Assembly (NCBI GenBank): GCA_022749935.1
Contig: JAKIWQ010000010.1
Coordinates: 1 to 43,904 of the forward strand
Reading direction: 5' to 3'
Source of the DNA: Thermoplasmata archaeon
GTDB taxonomy: Archaea; Thermoplasmatota; Thermoplasmata; Lutacidiplasmatales; UBA184
Length of the DNA stretch: 43,904 nt
Part shown: positions 22,059 through 41,999 of the stretch, one piece after another
Layout: each line of letters starts with the position of its first letter
How positions within the stretch are numbered: the stretch's first letter is position 1
Position numbers and translations under genes: made by a program
The notes under the pieces: generated by a model
The model's database searches: none
What the model was told of the DNA's origin: nothing
What the model saw: only the letters and a program-made list of their open reading frames with translations

Positions 22059-22320
22059 CAGGTCACACCAATCATGGTCGCCGGCCGGCAACCGTTTACT
22101 CCGGCAGACGGGGGGCGGTCCCAGCCCTGTGAAACACCCAGCCGGAGAGTGTAGGAATCCAGTGTAAGCCACAGATCGCCCGCCCCCGCCGGAAGTGACT
22201 CTTCGTGAGGGGAGTGGCTCCTCCGCGAGCCACAAGGGTCCCCCACGGTCCAGGGTTCACTGAGGGAGGCGCGATGGGGCTAAGGGGAGGGAGTCCCTCG
22301 GGAGGTTGACCCAGCCGACC

Positions 22321-24930
22321 ATGTCCGGTGCGACACCACGAAGGACGGGCCACGGATCTCTCGCCGTCGCCGTGGCCCTACTCGCCGTTTCGGCCCCGTT
22401 GTTTGCCGCGGCTCACACCTCTGGGGAACCCGTCGGAGTGAAGGTGGGCGTCCAACGAACCGTGGGAACGATCTCGACGACCCCCGGTGCGCCCATGCTG
22501 AGCCCCCCTCCCATCGGGTCGGTCGTAGGCACCTTTGACCTCGTGAACAATACCCTCCTCCCGGGCGACGCAACGACCTTCAGCGGGGTGTACACCAACG
22601 GTCTCGCCGTCGACACGAGGGACGGAGAACTCTTCGTCTGCAACGGCGACTCTTCCAACCTGGCCGTGATCAACCTGACGACCCTCCACCTCGTGGCGTG
22701 GAGAAACGTCGGCTCTCAGCCGTGGTCGATAGCGTTCGACAGCAGCAACGGCGATGTGTACGTCGCGAACCGGGGCACCAACAATGTCACCGTGCTCGAC
22801 GGGTCGACCTTCGCCGAGATCGCTTCGGTTCCTGTGGGGCTGGACCCCCAGGACCTGACCTACGATCCGACGAACGGATACATCTACGTCGCCAACCAGG
22901 GTAGCTCGAACCTCTCGGTGATCAACGGAGCAACCAACCTTCCGATCGCCTCGATCTCGATGGCTTCGGGCGCGTACGGCGTTGCGTATGACAGCGCGAA
23001 CGGGTACCTCTACGCTGCGAACGACAACTATGACTACGTAACGGTGATCGACGCTGCGTCCGCTACCGTGGTGACCACGGTTCCCGTCGGGATTGCTCCC
23101 ACCGACATTGCCTACGACAGTGCCAACGCGTACGTCTACGTCGCGAACGAAGGCTCGAACAGCGTCACTCCGATCGAGACCGCGACCAACACGGTGGCGA
23201 CCGGGATTCCGGTGGGGAGTGAGCCGTGGCGGCTCGCGTACGACGCGGCGAACGGCTACGTCTACGTGACCAACTTCGGGTCCCACAACGTCACCATCAT
23301 CAACCCGACGTTGAACGCGGCGATCGGGTCCATCGGCGTCGGTACCTACCCGTTCGGCATCGTTGACGATGCGGCCAACGGGCTCCTCTACGTCGCCGAG
23401 GAGGGTTCGTTGAACGTCACCGTCGTAAACCCTGCGCTCGAAACATCCGTCGGGTCGGTCGTGGTGGGAGCCACCCCCGAGGGAGTCGCGATCGATTCCG
23501 TGACAGGCCAGGTGTTCGTTTCCAACTCTGCCTCGCAAAACATCACGGTCCTCAACGGTACCTCCAACTCTGCAACGAAGTTCATTCCCTCCGTGAACGG
23601 CGCCGGGGACGTCGCGTACGACAGTGGGAACGGGGACTTCTACGTCACGAACCACAACAACAACTCGTTGACGGTGATCGATGGAACGTCGGACGCGGTG
23701 GTGAAATCGATCGCCGTGGGTGCGGGGCCGTACCGGATCGCGGTCGATAGCCGGAACGGATTCGTCTACGTGGCGGACCGCGCCTCAACCAATGTGACCG
23801 TGGTCGACGGGGCCACGAACACGGTGGTGGCGACGGTCGATCTTGGGCCCTACGATTATCCGTCCGACCTCTCGTTCGATGCGGCGAACGGGTACGTCTA
23901 CGTGGCCGACACGATTGGGACCAATGTCAGTGTGATCGACGGGGCCAACAATTCGGTCCTTGGCACGCTGACCTCGGGACTCGACCCCTACGGGATTGCC
24001 GCGGACGCGGCCGCGGGGACCGTCTACGTGGCCGATACGGGGGCCAGCAACGTGACCGTCCTCAACACGTCTACGGGCCTGGCCGTGGCCACCCTCCCTG
24101 TCGGAATCGAACCGGAAGGGGTGTCCATCGACACTACCAATGGCTACGCGTATGTGGCCAACACCGCTTCGGGAAACGTATCCGTCATCGACGGGGCCAC
24201 GCACACCCTCCTCGGATCACTCGGGGTCGGAACCTATCCCACCACGGTTCGATTCGACGCGGGGAACGGAGAGGTCTACGTCGAGAACCGAGGATCGGGT
24301 TCAGTCTCCATCATCGGTCCGGTGGGGGTCCTGACGTCTCTCGCGGTCGCTCCTCCGGCCCCTACGGTCGCAGTCGGGGCCCAGGTCGTCCTCTCGGCCA
24401 CGTTGACCTGCTCTCCTGCCCCGTGCCCGACCTCCGGGGCTTTCGTCAACTGGTCCCTCAACAACTCGAAAGCTACCCTTAGCCCCCCGACCGGACCCCT
24501 CACCGTCCTGACGGCGGGAACGGTCGGTGGTACCGTCGAGGCGACCGCGACGGCGAGTCTTGGAGGCGTGTCGATTCAACGCGCGATCGCTATCACCATC
24601 CTCGGTGAGGCACTCCAATCGGTGAGCGTGAGTCCCGCGACGCCGACCCTCGCCCCCGGAACCAGCCTGGCCCTTACCGCGTCGGCAGTGTGTACGCCCA
24701 ACGTCTGCCCTTCCTCTGGCATCACTTTCAACTGGACCCTGAACAATTCCGCGGCCACGCTCAGCTCGAAGACCGGTCCCTCAGTCACCCTGACCGCCGG
24801 CTCCGTGGCCGGAGAGGTGACGGTAACCGCTGCAGCGAGCTACCAAGGGGGGCTAGTGAAAGGTTCCGTCCCGGTACTCATTTCCTCCCCTTCTGCCGTA
24901 AGAAATTCGAATTCCTCCTACCCCGGGTAG
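22321..24930 (+). CDS. Secreted 14-repeat YVTN beta-propeller protein with two Ig-like domains
   Basis: A cell-surface protein of 869 residues. The signal peptide is SLAVAVALLAVSAPLFAAAH near residues 18-37. Then come fourteen repeats of about 43 residues, each containing a variant of VYVANxGSNNVTVI plus a GxxPxGIAYDxANG turn, which would make two seven-bladed propellers. Two Ig-like (BIG-type) domains follow, each with paired cysteines (CSPAPCPTSG and CTPNVCPSSG) and the shared pattern NWSLNNSKATLS/NWTLNNSAATLS. The frame stops at TAG 24928-24930, exactly before sequence that encodes a membrane anchor in the same frame. As read, the protein is released rather than anchored. Such propellers are common archaeal surface proteins; the ligand is unknown. 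Confidence 0.9.
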   Translation: MSGATPRRTGHGSLAVAVALLAVSAPLFAAAHTSGEPVGVKVGVQRTVGTISTTPGAPMLSPPPIGSVVGTFDLVNNTLLPGDATTFSGVYTNGLAVDTRDGELFVCNGDSSNLAVINLTTLHLVAWRNVGSQPWSIAFDSSNGDVYVANRGTNNVTVLDGSTFAEIASVPVGLDPQDLTYDPTNGYIYVANQGSSNLSVINGATNLPIASISMASGAYGVAYDSANGYLYAANDNYDYVTVIDAASATVVTTVPVGIAPTDIAYDSANAYVYVANEGSNSVTPIETATNTVATGIPVGSEPWRLAYDAANGYVYVTNFGSHNVTIINPTLNAAIGSIGVGTYPFGIVDDAANGLLYVAEEGSLNVTVVNPALETSVGSVVVGATPEGVAIDSVTGQVFVSNSASQNITVLNGTSNSATKFIPSVNGAGDVAYDSGNGDFYVTNHNNNSLTVIDGTSDAVVKSIAVGAGPYRIAVDSRNGFVYVADRASTNVTVVDGATNTVVATVDLGPYDYPSDLSFDAANGYVYVADTIGTNVSVIDGANNSVLGTLTSGLDPYGIAADAAAGTVYVADTGASNVTVLNTSTGLAVATLPVGIEPEGVSIDTTNGYAYVANTASGNVSVIDGATHTLLGSLGVGTYPTTVRFDAGNGEVYVENRGSGSVSIIGPVGVLTSLAVAPPAPTVAVGAQVVLSATLTCSPAPCPTSGAFVNWSLNNSKATLSPPTGPLTVLTAGTVGGTVEATATASLGGVSIQRAIAITILGEALQSVSVSPATPTLAPGTSLALTASAVCTPNVCPSSGITFNWTLNNSAATLSSKTGPSVTLTAGSVAGEVTVTAAASYQGGLVKGSVPVLISSPSAVRNSNSSYPG

Positions 24931-25080
24931 CTCCTGTGGGTTTTCGTAGGGATCTCCGTGCTGGCCGTTGTCGTGGCAGCTGTGGTCGTGCTCGCCCGTC
25001 GGCGTCGTCTCCCGCCGGGAGAGGTTGGTCCTCCGGCAGGCGCTTTCCCTGATGAGGGCCCGCCGGTCCCTCCCCTGTAA
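24931..25080 (+). other. In-frame C-terminal membrane anchor beyond the TAG stop of the YVTN propeller
   Basis: Directly after the TAG, the same frame continues for 49 codons to a TAA at 25078-25080. It encodes LLWVFVGISVLAVVVAAVVV, then LARRRR and a Pro/Gly-rich tail: a textbook transmembrane helix with a positive stop-transfer signal and cytoplasmic tail. This is the expected end of an anchored surface protein. The TAG would be a Trp codon (TGG) with one base change, so a recent nonsense mutation, a sequencing error or stop readthrough could explain it. Confidence 0.75.
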
Positions 25081-25124
25081 CAGTCAGGGAATCCTCGTCC
25101 CACATTTCTCTCGGGTGATCCTAA

Positions 25125-25155
25125 CCCCCGCGGGATCGTGGGAACCCCGCGGGGG
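25125..25155. terminator. Hairpin after the YVTN propeller gene
   Basis: CCCCCGCGGG (25125-25134) and CCCGCGGGGG (25146-25155) are perfectly complementary 10-base arms around an 11-base loop. It lies between the end of the propeller/anchor frame and the next gene's promoter. It may act as a terminator or mRNA 3' end structure; no U-run follows. Confidence 0.4.
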
Positions 25156-25270
25156 CGCGGGTGGGACAGATCGAGACGGGCGGGTGGCCCGTCCTCCGGG
25201 GCACACCGCCGAGAGCTGCGGATGGTTTTCCGGTCTCGGCCGGGGCGCGGTTCCGAGATTCAGGGTAGGC

Positions 25271-25278
25271 TCATAAGA
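25271..25278 (+). promoter_or_regulatory. Probable TATA box of the first PQQ-propeller gene
   Basis: TCATAAGA is centred about 25 nt upstream of the ATG at 25300, in GC-rich sequence. The spacing suits a leaderless transcript and supports choosing this ATG over the open frame that extends further upstream. Confidence 0.45.
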
Positions 25279-25299
25279 AGGCCTTCAGCTGGCCGCCCG

Positions 25300-28200
25300 A
25301 TGTCCACCCATCCCTCAGGGGCTCGGAATCCGGAAAGGCCCCTCGCGGGGGCGGCGGCGTCCGTCGCCCTCGTGGTCGTTCTGTTCATTTCGTCCGGAGC
25401 TTTCGATCTCGGGACGGGGTCCCACCGTCCGGCACTCGGTTCGAATCCGGGGACCGGATTCCCTCCGCCGTCCGGCCTCGCGCCCCTTGCGATCCCGAAG
25501 AACAACCACTACGATTGGCCGGAGTTCCATCACAACCCGGCGCTGAACGGGTACGCCAGCAACAGCCCTCTCTCCTCGGCGAACGCTTCGGCGCTCGGAG
25601 TAGCTTGGGCGACGAACCTGTATGGTGCGGCCCTCGACTCGCCCGCTGTCGCCTACGACCCCCTCCTGGGGGAGACCCTCGTGTACGTCGGAACCGACAC
25701 CGGGGATTTCGTCGCGGTCAATCTAGCCAATGGCGCCATCGTGTGGGGGGTCTGGCTCGGCTCACCGATCCGGTCCTCTCCTCTCGTCGTCAACGGGTCC
25801 GTGTTTGTCGTGCCGTTCTCCAACGGGAAGATAGTGAGGCTCAACGCCACGACGGGCGCGACCCTCTGCTCGACAGCCCTACCCGGAACGAGCGAAGCGA
25901 CCCCCACCTACGGTACTCCCCCCGGGGGTGTCCCCACGGTATTCCTCGGGACCGAGGCGCCCAGTCCTCAGAACGGAGCGTTCGTCGCCATCAACGCCGG
26001 GAACTGCAGTATCGAGTGGGAGTTCTCCGGATACCACCAGCCGGCCGGTAGCTGGGATCCCGCCTCGTATGTCGTGAACGCCAGCGGAGGTCCGATGGTC
26101 CTCTTCGGTACGGACGACCCCGACTCGTCCGTCTATGCCCTGAATGCTCTCACCGGGCATCTCCTCTGGCGGTTCCAATGCTACAATCCGCCGGGGAAGG
26201 ATTTCGACGTGGGGGCCGGCCCGTCGGTGGCCCTTCCCGGTAGCAATGGCTTCTCTCAGGGGGTGGTGTACGTCACGAACGGCGCCGACATCGCGTATGC
26301 GCTCCACCTCAACAACGGCACCCTCCTCTGGGAGACGAACTTCTTCACTCTCTCCGGGCTCGCGGGAACCGTCGAGCCCCGGGCCCGGTCCACCCCGGCC
26401 CTCGACGGGAAGGATGTGATCTTCGGCTTCAACCTGGGCTTGATCGACCTGAACGCCCGTACCGGAAAGCTCCTCTGGATCTACGACGACGTTTCGAGAA
26501 CGGAGTCGATCGCGGCACCGGCCATTGCCGGGCCGACGCACCACGCCATCGTAGTCACGGGAGACGTGGGCGGCTCCCTCGACGTACTCTCCCGGACCGG
26601 GGGGACCCTTCTCTATTCGTATCCGACCGGCGGATGGATCGCCGCATCCCCCGCGATCTCCGGCGGAAACATCGTGGTGGCTTCCTCCGACGGATTCCTC
26701 CTTGATTTTGCCCTGGGCGGCGGAGACGATGCGTTGCTCCCGACGACCTCGATCACCTCCCCGCTCGCGGAGGCCACACTCCCGAACTCCAACGGAAGCG
26801 TGAGCGTGTCTGGCACCGCGATGGACGCGGTAGGGGTCGCCGCGGTGGAGGTGGCCATCCAGTCGGGAGATGCGAGCGGACCCTGGTGGGACGGGGCGAC
26901 CCAGACCTGGTCACCGGGGCCGATCAACAACCGCGCGACCCTAGTGTCCCCCGGGGCGGGGTCGACCGCCTGGAGTTTCCCCTTCCCGGTCCCGGCGGCC
27001 GGCGGGACGTACGAAGTGATCTCGAACGCTCAGTCCATCGGCGGGCAGACCGACCCGAACGGGGCCTCGGTCGACTTCGTGGTCAACTACAGCACCTCGG
27101 GCCCGTACCTCCGAGCCTCTTCGGCGTACGTGGCTCCCGGGGGCGCCCTGACGATCAGCGGCGGGGGGTTCGGTCCCTCCGCCCAGGTAACGATCGGACT
27201 CTACGGAAAATCGCTCGCGAAGATGACTTCCGCGTCCGACGGCTCGCTCCCGCCGACGTCGGTCGTGATCCCGAAGGGATCGACCTTTGGCCCGACGTCC
27301 CTGACGGCCATGGCCAAAGGTTCCGGCCGGTCGAGCAGCACCTCCATCACGATCGCCAACAGTTGGGCTCAGCTCAGTAACGGTCCCGGCCACACGGGGT
27401 TCGAGCCGAACGACCCCTCGCTCCACCAGGTCATTTTTCCCGGGAACGACTACTGGCTGAAAGTCGCGTGGCGGTTCAGCGCACCGACGTCGCTGACCTC
27501 CTCCCCCGCGGTCGTCGACGGGAGGGCGTACGTCGGGGATTCGGTCGGAAATCTCTATGCGATCGATCTCCTCAACGGGGGCCTCCTGTGGAATTCCACC
27601 CTCCCCACCGGCGCCGCCATCGACGGGAGTCCGGCGGTGGACCCGGCCCTCGGTCAGGTTTTCGTCGGAGCGAACGACGGCACGCTGTACTCCTATGACC
27701 TGTCGAATGGGACCCCCGCGTGGTCCGTTTCTCTGGGCGGAATCGTCTCGGCCCCCGTGATCTCCAACGGAGAGCTCTACGTCACGACCACCGCCGGGGG
27801 GCTGGACGATCTCGCGGAATCTTCGGGCGCGGTGCTCTGGTCGATGACCCTAGGCAGCGCTGCGACGGCCGCGCCCACGCTGAACGATTCGAGTCACCTC
27901 TTGGTCGTGGGCGAAGCGGATGGCCAAGTGCTCGGGTTGAACTCCACGACGGGCGCGACCCGCTGGAATTTCGGGACCGGTGGTGCGGTGACCGCCGCAC
28001 CTCTCGTGACCCGAGGCAAGGTGTACGTCAGTTCGAGCGATGACTCGCTCTACGCGCTCAACCAGTCCACCGGCGGGCTCCGCTGGTCGTTCCGCACTGG
28101 GGGGGCGATACAGGACACCGCGACGGTCGACAACTGGGGCCTGCTGTACGTGGGGTCGGATGACGGGTACCTGTACGTCCTGGACGCATCGGGCGGCCGG

Positions 28201-28449
28201 GAGAAGTTCAACTTTTCCGTGGGGTCGCCGATCGTGGGAGAGTCGAGCACCGAGGGGGTCACCGTGTTCGAGGACGCGGCCGGGACCATCGGGGCCCAGA
28301 AGACGTTCGTCGAGGGAAACGCGAGTTGGAGATTCCCGACCGGAGGCCCCCTCTGGACAATCCCCGTAATCGTCGACTCCGCCGTGTTCGTGGCCGCCGG
28401 CGACGGGACCCTGTACGCCTTCACCACGCTAGGTCAGGGGCCGGTGTGA
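25300..28449 (+). CDS. Exported double PQQ-like beta-propeller protein, copy 1
   Basis: A 1049-residue surface protein. The N-terminal hydrophobic helix PLAGAAASVALVVVLFISSG (about 14-33) is a signal or anchor. A first PQQ/BamB-like propeller spans roughly 70-478 (LVYVGTDTGDFVAVNLANG, LVWG/LLWR-type strands). An Ig-like region with TSITSPLAEATLPNSNGSVS covers about 480-595, and an IPT/TIG-like domain (VAPGGALTISGGGFGPSAQV) covers about 600-690. A second propeller runs to the end (AYVGDSVGNLYAIDLLNGG, LYVGSDDGYLYVLDASGG). The frame is open upstream, but the ATG at 25300 fits the signal peptide and TATA box. It is clearly homologous to the protein at 38847-41999. No PQQ-dependent active site is evident, so a binding or scaffold role is more likely than an enzyme. 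Confidence 0.9.
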   Translation: MSTHPSGARNPERPLAGAAASVALVVVLFISSGAFDLGTGSHRPALGSNPGTGFPPPSGLAPLAIPKNNHYDWPEFHHNPALNGYASNSPLSSANASALGVAWATNLYGAALDSPAVAYDPLLGETLVYVGTDTGDFVAVNLANGAIVWGVWLGSPIRSSPLVVNGSVFVVPFSNGKIVRLNATTGATLCSTALPGTSEATPTYGTPPGGVPTVFLGTEAPSPQNGAFVAINAGNCSIEWEFSGYHQPAGSWDPASYVVNASGGPMVLFGTDDPDSSVYALNALTGHLLWRFQCYNPPGKDFDVGAGPSVALPGSNGFSQGVVYVTNGADIAYALHLNNGTLLWETNFFTLSGLAGTVEPRARSTPALDGKDVIFGFNLGLIDLNARTGKLLWIYDDVSRTESIAAPAIAGPTHHAIVVTGDVGGSLDVLSRTGGTLLYSYPTGGWIAASPAISGGNIVVASSDGFLLDFALGGGDDALLPTTSITSPLAEATLPNSNGSVSVSGTAMDAVGVAAVEVAIQSGDASGPWWDGATQTWSPGPINNRATLVSPGAGSTAWSFPFPVPAAGGTYEVISNAQSIGGQTDPNGASVDFVVNYSTSGPYLRASSAYVAPGGALTISGGGFGPSAQVTIGLYGKSLAKMTSASDGSLPPTSVVIPKGSTFGPTSLTAMAKGSGRSSSTSITIANSWAQLSNGPGHTGFEPNDPSLHQVIFPGNDYWLKVAWRFSAPTSLTSSPAVVDGRAYVGDSVGNLYAIDLLNGGLLWNSTLPTGAAIDGSPAVDPALGQVFVGANDGTLYSYDLSNGTPAWSVSLGGIVSAPVISNGELYVTTTAGGLDDLAESSGAVLWSMTLGSAATAAPTLNDSSHLLVVGEADGQVLGLNSTTGATRWNFGTGGAVTAAPLVTRGKVYVSSSDDSLYALNQSTGGLRWSFRTGGAIQDTATVDNWGLLYVGSDDGYLYVLDASGGREKFNFSVGSPIVGESSTEGVTVFEDAAGTIGAQKTFVEGNASWRFPTGGPLWTIPVIVDSAVFVAAGDGTLYAFTTLGQGPV

Positions 28450-28498
28450 CCGAGGGTCACGGGATCCCTGCGTCCGTCGCACTCACTCCATTCCTCGC

Positions 28499-28533
28499 CC
28501 TCCCTAGGGGGCGCCCTCGTGGCGATAGGGAGG
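28499..28533. terminator. Hairpin after PQQ-propeller copy 1
   Basis: CCTCCCTA (28499-28506) pairs with TAGGGAGG (28526-28533) around a GC-rich 19-base loop, about 50 bases after the stop codon. It is a terminator or 3'-end structure candidate. The rest of 28450-28738 shows no gene; a TTAGAATA element at 28691-28698 may be the TATA box of the next gene. Confidence 0.35.
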
Positions 28534-28738
28534 CCACTCCCCCACCCTCCGAAGCCAAGGACGTCTTGGATCCCCGGCCCATTGAAGCACACAGTGGGCC
28601 GAGGCCCCATCCTTGACAGCGTTCGCCGTGCGCTGAGGCGGAAACCTACCCACCGCCGTGGGCCGGGTCGGGGGGCGGGTCCACCACGAATTAGAATAGA
28701 GTGAGCGCCCCTCCGGAATCGCGAGGTCCGAGCGCGAC

Positions 28739-29380
28739 ATGTCCAAGGAGTTCGCCCAGGGTCCGGACCAACGAACCCCCCCTTCGCCAGACGAGCTCTT
28801 CGCTCGGTTTCGCAAGCTCTACGACGCCTCGGCGGCCGACATGACCACTGAGCTCGGGCTCTTCTTTGAGCGGCATTACAAATTCGTCCAGTACGAACAG
28901 TTGCTCGACACGAACCGCCCGGAGTACCTCGACCAGGAGTGGAATCGGGTCTTCGCTGGGTTCATCGCCTCCCTCGCTCGGGAGTTCGGATTCGTCCCGG
29001 GGCGACAATGGACGGGCGTGCCCGGGATGATCTGGTTCTGGCCCTCCAGCCCGACCGAAGTCGGCGTGCTGTTTCAGGAGGTGAACGAGGCGAACGATTC
29101 GATCCTCACCCGGGAGGTCCCCCAGATGGTGCGGGACGGGGCCCCGGTCTCCGTCCTGATCATGTACCCGGATTATCCGCTGGCTCCGGGCACCTCAGAC
29201 GTCGCTCAGTCCACCGATCGCTGGCGGAAGAAGGTCGGGCACGCTCTGTCGGGCCTGGGACCTTCGGGCGACTTCCTCCTGATGACGATCAGCGCGGTCT
29301 CCTGGGAACTCCCCTCGACGTGGGCCGGATTCGTGTGGGACCCGACCGCAGCGGAGTTGAGGCCCGTCGGTTCCCCCTAG
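28739..29380 (+). CDS. Hypothetical protein, 213 aa
   Basis: No family is recognised. The protein is soluble, acidic and rich in aromatic residues. The first 75 residues are helical (ELFARFRKLYDASAADMTTE, LGLFFERHYKFVQYEQLLDT). The rest alternates strands and helices, with IWFWPSSPTEVGVLFQEVNE, VSVLIMYPDYPLAPGT, a charged segment and FLLMTISAVSWELPSTWAGF. The alternation with a helical N-terminus and hydrophobic strands could fit a restriction-endonuclease-like or other alpha/beta fold, but no catalytic motif is convincing. It stands alone between the propeller gene and the exported-protein cluster, with a possible TATA box 44 nt upstream. Confidence 0.7.
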   Translation: MSKEFAQGPDQRTPPSPDELFARFRKLYDASAADMTTELGLFFERHYKFVQYEQLLDTNRPEYLDQEWNRVFAGFIASLAREFGFVPGRQWTGVPGMIWFWPSSPTEVGVLFQEVNEANDSILTREVPQMVRDGAPVSVLIMYPDYPLAPGTSDVAQSTDRWRKKVGHALSGLGPSGDFLLMTISAVSWELPSTWAGFVWDPTAAELRPVGSP

Positions 29381-29674
29381 CCGGGGGAGCGGCCGGGGCG
29401 AGCCCCCGACGTTCGCACGGGCACCATCACGAAATCCCGGCAGGCGCCGCCGAAAGGGGCGGAGCAGCGGGGCCGGGCCCTCACATTCTGGCAAGGCCCG
29501 GATTCTTCCGGATCCGATCGTGAAAAGTCTCAGAGCGGGAAGGACGCGATTCGACCCGAAGGGCCGATTTTGGCCGACACGCGTGGCGTATAATCACTGA
29601 GGTGAACTTGTCCAATCACTTAAGTACCGCGATGAGACATCTCCGCTTGTCGGTCGCCGAGGAACATCGAGTCC

Positions 29675-30208
29675 ATGAACAACAAGAATCGGGTACGAGC
29701 GATCTATACCAGTACGGCGATTGTGGCAATTGCATTGGCCTCGGGGTTCGCCCTGGCGGCAGTGCTTACGAGTACTACCGTGAATCAGAGCGCCAACTAC
29801 TACCAAGGTGGGAACACCGGTGCGAACGGGTACGGCGCCGCCACCCTCGTCGTCGCCACGACCCCGGCGGCCACCTCGGTATGCACTTCCGGAACGCTCA
29901 CCGGAGCCTCGAACGCGGGCACCGTCACCATGATTGTTTCGTCGACCTCCGGTGGAACGGTATGCACCACGGGAGACTTTGCCGAGGAATACTCGTTCGC
30001 GTTCTCTGCGACGATCTCGTCGCAGACGAATTCGATCACGGTCACCTCCCAAGTGGGAGCGGGCGCCGTCCAGACCAACACCGAGGCGGTCCATCTCGGA
30101 ACGGGTGTCAGCGTGGCCTTCACCCAGACGGTTGACGTCTTCGTCGATTACGGTGCGGTTAACCCGCCGGCGACCGGCGTCGCGGTCTTGGACGTCGTCG
30201 TACAGTAG
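29675..30208 (+). CDS. Exported pilin-like/TasA-like surface protein A, 177 aa
   Basis: A short basic start (MNNKNRVR) is followed by one hydrophobic helix (about residues 9-31, STAIVAIALASGFALAAVL), then a Thr/Ser/Val/Gly-rich beta region. Cys70 and Cys97 lie in CTSGTLTG and TVCTTGDFAEEYS, probably forming a disulfide. The end FVDYGAVNPPATGVAVLDVV is shared with the protein at 31472-32008, in which both cysteines fall at exactly the same positions. Size and layout recall archaeal donor-strand pilins and TasA-type fibre proteins, but no prepilin-peptidase motif is clear, so this is only an analogy. AT-rich elements at 29588-29595 and 29619-29626 may be promoter parts. The 294 bases upstream hold no other gene. 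Confidence 0.72.
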   Translation: MNNKNRVRAIYTSTAIVAIALASGFALAAVLTSTTVNQSANYYQGGNTGANGYGAATLVVATTPAATSVCTSGTLTGASNAGTVTMIVSSTSGGTVCTTGDFAEEYSFAFSATISSQTNSITVTSQVGAGAVQTNTEAVHLGTGVSVAFTQTVDVFVDYGAVNPPATGVAVLDVVVQ

Positions 30209-38846: not shown

Positions 38847-41800
38847 CTAGATCGGGGGCTGCCCGTTGGGCGTGAACGCGTACAAGTTGCCGTCTTCGGA
38901 GGCCAGGTAGATCGTGCCGTCGATCAGCACCGGGGCAGTCACCAAGGGGCCGCCGGTCGTAAAGTTCCACCCTCCTTCGGTCGGATAGCTCCGGACCGCG
39001 CCCATCAACCCGGTAGAAGTCTCGAACACGACCACTCCGTTTTGGGTAGAGAGGCCAGCGACCGGGGCGCCAACGGTGACGTTGAACAGGAGAGACCCGT
39101 TCGACGCGCGGAGTCCGTAGACCGTCCCGTCGTCGGAGCCGATGAAAAACGTGAGGGCCCCCTTCGGGGTCTGGCCGTTCGACAAACTGCCCGTGTCCCG
39201 TATCGCGCCTCCGGTCGTGAACGACCAGCGCTTGGTACCGGTCGCTTGATTCAGGGCGTAGACCTTGTGGTTGGTCGAGCCGACGTACACTGTATCCCCC
39301 AACAGGACGGCGGGAGCGGTCACGGCGGATCCGGTCGAGTAGGTCCATCGGATCCCACCGGTGGAGGAGTTCAATCCCACGACCTTCCCGTTGGACTCGC
39401 CGACGACCAGGAGATTCACCGACGCGTTCAGTGCCGGGGCGGACGTCGCTGGGCTCGCGAGCGTCTTGGACCACGAAACGGCACCGTTAGATTCCGCGAG
39501 CGCGGCGACCGCTCCCGAACCCGACGTGACGTAGAGCTCGCCTCCGGCCTCGACCGGTGCCGAGACGTTCCCGCCGACGTGCGTCGACCAGGCGAGGGTA
39601 CCGTTAGCGAGGTAGACCGCGTCCACACTCCCGTCCTGGGACCCGACGAAGACCCGCCCGAGTCCCCGGTCGACCGCCGGGGAGCCGTCGATGCCGCCGG
39701 CCGAGGCGAGCGTGAAATTCCAGAGCAGTCCGCCGTTGTGGATGTCGACCGCGAAGAGATTGCCGACCGAATCGCCGACGTACGCCACGCCGTCCACGAC
39801 CGCCGGGGACGCGTTGATCGGGACCTTGGCGTCAAAGTGCCACGCCATCTTGACCCAGTTGTTATCGCCCGGGAAGACCAGGTGTCGGAGCGTCAAGTCG
39901 TAGGGCTGATTCCCGTCGTGACCCGGGTCGTAGCCGAGTTGCTGCCAGCTGTTGGCGATCGTGAGGGGCGCGCTGCTAGACGCTCCGGACTTTTGACCGA
40001 CCGCGGTCAACGAGGTCAGCCCGAACAGCGAGGTGGTCGGTAGGAGAATTCGAGTCGAGGGGAGGGACCCGTTCTTCGCCGAGGTGATCGTGGCCAGGAG
40101 CACGCCGGGGAGGCTAAGGTTCACCTTCTGCGACCGACCAAAACCCCCGCCGTGGACCATGATGGCGCTCCCGGGGGCCGCCGAGGAGGGAGAGACGACC
40201 AGGTGGGGTCCGGACGTGCTGTAACGCACTGAAAATCCCGCCTCCGTGTTGTTGAGGTCGGACTGACCGGACGAGGAGACCGCGTACGCGACTACCTGGA
40301 AAGTACCACCGGCCCGAGCGACGGGGAACGCTAGGGACCACGACGTGGAGGGGTTTCCCGGGTGGGCGAGGGCGGCGGGGTTTTCGATGGGTCCGGGGGA
40401 CCAGGTCCGCGACGCCCCGTCCCACCACGGCCCGGCTGGGCCGCCGGATTGAACGGCCACATTCACCCCGACGACGGCGGTGGGATCGACGGCGGTTCCT
40501 GTGACACTCAGATTCCCGTTGGGGTTGGCGAGCGTGGCGCCTTGAGCGGGGGAAGAAATGCTGGTGCTGGGGAGCGTCGCGTGGTTCCCTCCGCCGACCA
40601 CGAAGTCGTAGAGGAATCCGTTCGAGGACGCGATCACGATGTTCCCACCCGAGATCGCGGGGGAGGCCGTGATGTACCCGCCGGTCGGATAAGTGTAGAG
40701 CTGCGACCCCCCGACGATCGCGACGACGTCGAGCTCTCCGGCGAGATCCCCGACCGCCACGATCGCATGGCCGTGACCGCCGGCGATCGCCGGGGAGGAG
40801 ATCGCCTCCGTGGACGACGGGTCGTGGTAGATCCAGACCTGCCCGCCCGTAGAGGCATTCAAGGCGAACAGCCCGCCGGCGTACCCGAATACCAGGGTCA
40901 TCCCGTCCAGCGCCGGCGTCGAGCGGGCGTCTCCCGTGGTCCCGGCGAGGGCATTGAAATTCGTCTCCCAGATCAGCGAACCGTTGTTCAGGTCGAGCGC
41001 GTAGGCACGACCGGCCTTGTTCGTGGCGTACGCCACCCCTTGGGCAAACCCGTTCTTGCCCGGCGGGGAGATCGTGACCCCAGCCCCGACGTCCAAATCC
41101 GCCCCCGGGGGATTGTAGGTCTGGAAACGCCAGATGAGCTGCCCGGTGAGAGCGTTGATGGCATAGATCGACGAGTCGGGGTCGTCCGTGCCAAACAACA
41201 CCATCGGGACTCCGCCCTTGCTGACCGCGTAGGAGGCCGAATCCCATGAGCCCGCGGTGTGGTTGTACCCGGTGAACGCCCACTCGATCGTACAATTGGC
41301 CTCATTTACGGCCAGGAAGGGACCACTATGGGAACCCTCCCCGTTCGCGCCGATGTAGACGGTAGCTACTCCGTTCTTGGGGGTCGCCACGGTCGGCGTC
41401 GCTTCGAACGGAGTGGGGCTGATGACGGAACACTGGGTCGCCCCGGTGGTCGCGTTGAGCTTGAAAAGTGCCGGGTTCGTATCGGTGCCGATGAAGACCG
41501 ACCCGTTGGTCACGAGAGGGGAGGACCGGATCGGGGAGCCCAGCCATACTCCCCAGACGATCTGGCCGCTCGCGAGGTTGATGGCCAGCACATTTCCACT
41601 CTCGGTCCCGATGTACGCTAGGGTCGCTCCGAGGTAGGAATCGTAGGCGATCGCGGGCGAATCGAGCGCGGAGCTGTACAGGTCGGTCGCCCACGCTACT
41701 CCCAGTCCGGAGGCATTCGTGGACGAGAGCGGGCTATTGGAGGCGTAGCCACCCAGCAATGGGGTCTGGTGCAGCTCGGGCCAATCGTCGGCCGCACTGG

Positions 41801-41999
41801 TGACCACCATCGCGTGGGTCACCGATCCCCCGACCGAGCCCAGACCGCCCCCGACACGAGTTCCGCCGATGGTGGAACGGGTCTGCTCCTCGGCCCACAC
41901 GCCGGTGGGTAAGCTCACCAGCGCCGCAATCGCGATGACCGTACCCCAAACGAGGAGTCGCGGACGGGTGCGTAGCGAGCGCCGTGGGTGGGGTTGCAT
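38847..41999 (-). CDS. Exported double PQQ-like beta-propeller protein, copy 2
   Basis: A 1050-residue homolog of the protein at 25300-28449 with the same domain order: signal helix (LLVWGTVIAIAALVSLPTGV, cleavage likely after VWA), propeller, Ig-like region (TSISSPAQGATLANPNGNLS), IPT-like domain (SAAPGSAIMVHGGGFGRSQK) and a second propeller ending DGNLYAFTPNGQPPI. Nearly identical stretches are shared with copy 1, such as GYASNSPLSS and IVWGVWLGSPIRSSPLV. The N-terminal 60 residues differ. The ATG at 41999 fits the signal peptide. It is oriented opposite to copy 1, so the two form a large inverted repeat at protein level. Confidence 0.9.
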   Translation of the reverse strand: MQPHPRRSLRTRPRLLVWGTVIAIAALVSLPTGVWAEEQTRSTIGGTRVGGGLGSVGGSVTHAMVVTSAADDWPELHQTPLLGGYASNSPLSSTNASGLGVAWATDLYSSALDSPAIAYDSYLGATLAYIGTESGNVLAINLASGQIVWGVWLGSPIRSSPLVTNGSVFIGTDTNPALFKLNATTGATQCSVISPTPFEATPTVATPKNGVATVYIGANGEGSHSGPFLAVNEANCTIEWAFTGYNHTAGSWDSASYAVSKGGVPMVLFGTDDPDSSIYAINALTGQLIWRFQTYNPPGADLDVGAGVTISPPGKNGFAQGVAYATNKAGRAYALDLNNGSLIWETNFNALAGTTGDARSTPALDGMTLVFGYAGGLFALNASTGGQVWIYHDPSSTEAISSPAIAGGHGHAIVAVGDLAGELDVVAIVGGSQLYTYPTGGYITASPAISGGNIVIASSNGFLYDFVVGGGNHATLPSTSISSPAQGATLANPNGNLSVTGTAVDPTAVVGVNVAVQSGGPAGPWWDGASRTWSPGPIENPAALAHPGNPSTSWSLAFPVARAGGTFQVVAYAVSSSGQSDLNNTEAGFSVRYSTSGPHLVVSPSSAAPGSAIMVHGGGFGRSQKVNLSLPGVLLATITSAKNGSLPSTRILLPTTSLFGLTSLTAVGQKSGASSSAPLTIANSWQQLGYDPGHDGNQPYDLTLRHLVFPGDNNWVKMAWHFDAKVPINASPAVVDGVAYVGDSVGNLFAVDIHNGGLLWNFTLASAGGIDGSPAVDRGLGRVFVGSQDGSVDAVYLANGTLAWSTHVGGNVSAPVEAGGELYVTSGSGAVAALAESNGAVSWSKTLASPATSAPALNASVNLLVVGESNGKVVGLNSSTGGIRWTYSTGSAVTAPAVLLGDTVYVGSTNHKVYALNQATGTKRWSFTTGGAIRDTGSLSNGQTPKGALTFFIGSDDGTVYGLRASNGSLLFNVTVGAPVAGLSTQNGVVVFETSTGLMGAVRSYPTEGGWNFTTGGPLVTAPVLIDGTIYLASEDGNLYAFTPNGQPPI

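Follow-up and report, generated by a model that had tools for sequence, protein, structure and literature searches.

Probable recent loss of the C-terminal membrane anchor of an archaeal YVTN-propeller surface protein through a single nonsense substitution

Tandem YVTN propeller repeats are known from the archaeal surface layer YVTN beta-propeller protein (PDB 1L0Q), and they are found also in the protein described here, which differs from it in that two propellers are followed by Ig-like domains and by a stop ahead of a C-terminal anchor. A further term of comparison is provided by anchored YVTN/Ig-like proteins of the same genome and genus. These share with our gene an N-terminal hydrophobic segment, a long beta-rich ectodomain, a single C-terminal transmembrane (TM) segment, a basic cluster and a short Pro-rich tail; however, their frame is unbroken, with the stop after the tail, whereas that of our gene is interrupted. 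Single nonsense substitutions in otherwise intact genes have been described among the in-frame stop codons of prokaryotic genes (PMC7918605), and our gene resembles them in this; it differs in that no comparative evidence of selection on the part behind the stop was obtained, a close orthologue not having been found. As regards recoding, the only readthrough that a 2021 review names as demonstrated for archaea is that of selenocysteine and pyrrolysine (PMC8211752).

The gene is located in a contig of a Thermoplasmata archaeon (JAKIWQ010000010.1), of which we analyzed a stretch of 43,904 nucleotides, referred to throughout as the window; the source genome is a fragmented draft in 97 contigs, 95% complete. 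The features of interest are collected in Table 1. The frame starts with TTG, or with an ATG a few codons further, and runs through an N-terminal hydrophobic signal peptide, 14 YVTN-type repeats, two Ig-like domains and a Ser/Asn/Pro-rich linker up to a TAG. Several TIGR02276 matches, as well as the Pfam NHL and YNCE matches, are over their cut-offs, placing the protein in the YVTN beta-propeller family, and the structure 1l0q matches residues 234-521 with E = 1.3e-33. Thirteen of the repeats were recognized by a regular expression and one, degenerate, by eye, so that the description of a 14-blade propeller in the first-pass annotation holds; that description was right about the propeller, while overlooking the two Ig-like (Big_2-type) domains between it and the stop. 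An AlphaFold2 model was calculated for the last domain plus the anchor segment (residue numbers are the model's own). The last Ig-like domain is a confident beta-sandwich whose final strand ends at residue 91 (approximately position 24882); a loose linker follows, and a helix begins at residue 106, the TAG corresponding to residue 107. The stop thus sits about 15 residues past the last predicted strand, which suggests that the ectodomain stays whole.

Table 1. Coordinates of the features discussed in the text (positions are those of the window).
Feature	Position	Strand	Basis
Extracellular beta-propeller/Ig-like surface protein, 874 aa	22306..24930	+	ORF; Pfam NHL/Lactonase/YNCE/Big_2; TIGR02276; PDB 1l0q
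Two tandem Ig-like (Big_2-type) domains	24331..24882	+	profile matches 24331-24600 and from 24613; AlphaFold2
In-frame TAG where the linker meets the transmembrane helix	24928..24930	+	sequence; AlphaFold2 helix from residue 106
C-terminal anchor left behind the stop (hydrophobic helix, then RRRR and a Pro-rich tail, closed by TAA)	24931..25080	+	translation; paralogue/relative anchors
PQQ-type propeller protein, N-terminal hydrophobic segment, no C-terminal anchor	25303..28449	+	Pfam; C-terminus
PQQ-type propeller paralogue, no C-terminal anchor	38847..41999	-	

The sequence confirms that the TAG is in frame with the propeller gene and that 49 further codons in the same frame (24931-25077), closed by TAA at 25078-25080, encode a helix, an Arg cluster and a tail. 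Their translation, LLWVFVGISVLAVVVAAVVVLARRRRLPPGEVGPPAGAFPDEGPPVPPL, consists of a hydrophobic stretch of 22 residues followed by RRRR and a Pro-rich tail that includes the peptide LPPGEVGPPAGAFPDEGPPVPPL. Since the TAG at 24928 precedes this TM anchor, there is none in the translated frame, and the product as read falls outside the anchored subgroup. We also scanned the in-frame extensions of 25-150 codons behind the stops of all frames of at least 150 aa in the window and related loci (1.42 Mb): only one of 1,833, that of the propeller gene, was anchor-like (TM helix plus basic cluster), and we consider the segment to be more than a product of chance. The codon usage of the 49 codons falls inside the coding range as well as the off-frame range and does not discriminate between the two. 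The RNA downstream of the TAG shows no better folding than its shuffled counterparts (z = −0.44).

Comparison with related proteins leads to the same assessment of the segment. Nine long YVTN paralogues encoded in the genome have a complete C-terminus. In all of them the uninterrupted frame extends through a C-terminal hydrophobic helix to basic residues and a short tail, after which it mostly terminates in TAG; Ig-like relatives of the same genus likewise run into equivalent anchors with no intervening stop. A stop ahead of the anchor was not seen in any relative examined. A C-terminal TM segment could be recognized in 12 of the 14 propeller frames whose stop lies inside the fetched loci, and the present gene is the only one with such a segment after the stop. 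Ten other stop-containing matches, among those listed, were considered as parallel cases and rejected, their stops being natural ends that follow the anchor. To judge from these sequence comparisons, the segment behind the TAG is a genuine anchor, homologous to those of the relatives, as had been supposed at first reading.

That TAG works as a terminator in this window, and a common one, was also part of the first-pass annotation, and is well supported by our analysis. It ends 19 of the 37 genes predicted in the window from codon scores, and it alternates with the other stops at homologous gene ends: in relatives, the OBG-type GTPase next to the propeller gene ends in TAG, TGA or TAA in 22, 25 and 2 cases, respectively, and the cobalamin adenosyltransferase in 28, 14 and 5. 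Both of these conserved neighbours end in TAG in the window where relatives use TGA or TAA, a pattern that speaks against a genome-wide reassignment of the codon. Taken together, the interchangeable stops and the frequency of TAG indicate that it terminates translation here. In the 95%-complete genome, which leaves a small gap, no pyrrolysyl-tRNA synthetase (PylS) was found above the cut-off, and no CUA anticodon, as expected of tRNA-Pyl or of a suppressor, was present among the tRNA matches examined, with the intron-bearing ones read by eye; both pyrrolysine recoding, already deemed unlikely at the outset, and a suppressor tRNA were rejected on these grounds. Five of the tRNA genes, missed by ARAGORN, appear to be intron-bearing, with anticodons read by eye as CAT, CAT, GTA, TAA and CCA.

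The sense codon formerly present at the site would be visible in a close orthologue, and none was found by synteny or in 78 genomes of the genus; neither these 78 genomes nor the genome and viral contigs scanned contained a near-identical or long DNA match. Eight sense codons are one step away from TAG. TGG (Trp) is among them and had been proposed as the fitting codon, a suggestion not borne out by the relatives, whose residues aligned to the site are mixed and often Tyr or Pro. Relatives share the flanking block of GTPase, adenosyltransferase and RHH genes, and the propeller gene was not found beside it there. Also absent next to the block are the adjacent PQQ protein and two more genes, at 28739 and at 29675; the region 22306-30208 is apparently a lineage-specific stretch of surface genes. 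Among the relatives, MAG JOPF349 contains a pair of distinct OBG-type GTPase genes, with 78% and 72% identity to that of the window, which suggests a mixed bin or a duplicate.

We favor, with a probability of roughly 0.7, the explanation that one recent nonsense substitution cut the C-terminal membrane anchor off a typical archaeal YVTN-propeller surface protein. The substitution would have occurred just before the helix of a formerly anchored protein; termination at the TAG would be normal and would yield an 874-residue product, with two propellers and two Ig-like domains, to be exported via the signal peptide and then released or held by non-covalent contacts only, while the 49-codon anchor would persist as untranslated relict DNA, still recognisable. 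An anchorless product is made plausible by the large anchorless propeller proteins encoded in the same window (Table 1), of which the neighbour at 25303-28449 looks exported; these two paralogues have similar terminal motifs of the form ...DG.LYAFT..GQ.P. In simulations of neutral decay the anchor remained recognisable in about half of the cases at 0.05 changes per site, and in about 9% at 0.2: provided that translation of the tail has ceased, its intact state therefore suggests a young stop. We infer a recent mutation, and likewise a product that is secreted and folded.

Of the options offered by the first-pass annotation, recent mutation and strain variation belong to the class of explanation that fits best, while regulated readthrough fares poorly. 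A minority strain variant, or a consensus or assembly error, with the normal protein of the species anchored, ranks next after the nonsense substitution, and we regard it as unlikely: the draft is fragmented and the frame is open in every relative and every complete long paralogue examined, as this explanation would have it, but nothing else is broken in the 874-codon frame, and at any given site a short-read assembly seldom has a single-base consensus error. Regulated readthrough of UAG without pyrrolysine, by which one archaeal gene would yield a secreted surface protein and, as a minority, its anchored counterpart, appears improbable. Readthrough, too, would keep the anchor intact, and selection either for readthrough or for a clean cut would be expected to place the TAG exactly where it is, in the short interval of the 924 codons that separates the folded ectodomain from the helix. 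A C follows directly on the TAG, which in eukaryotes is a leaky context, though not demonstrated as such for archaea. In bacteria, in-frame stops have been reported in genes under purifying selection (PMC7918605). Against readthrough are the absence of a stop at this site in the relatives, all of them distant, the ordinary downstream RNA structure, and the failure to find PylS or a suppressor tRNA in the searches described above.

Rated slightly below readthrough is a selected loss of the anchor, in which secretion is now adaptive and the stop has been fixed: the cut falls cleanly in the linker of the AlphaFold2 model and large propeller proteins without C-terminal anchors occur nearby, but with one sequence and no orthologue such a loss is indistinguishable from a neutral nonsense allele. 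Finally, separate translation of the anchor segment by re-initiation, or a TAG read as pyrrolysine, can be given almost no weight. An in-frame GTG at 24958 could serve the former, but would give merely a truncated hydrophobic peptide; the latter is opposed by the lack of a PylS match above cut-off and by the common use of TAG as a stop.

If the TAG is a plain nonsense allele, the gene would be a small example of how a surface protein of these archaea can pass from anchored to secreted by the change of one base; TAG is the commonest predicted stop of this genome (19/37 genes in the window). Were readthrough true, it would instead represent archaeal stop-codon recoding beyond selenocysteine and pyrrolysine. 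Overall, the case looks like a single recent mutation rather than a new reading of the genetic code.
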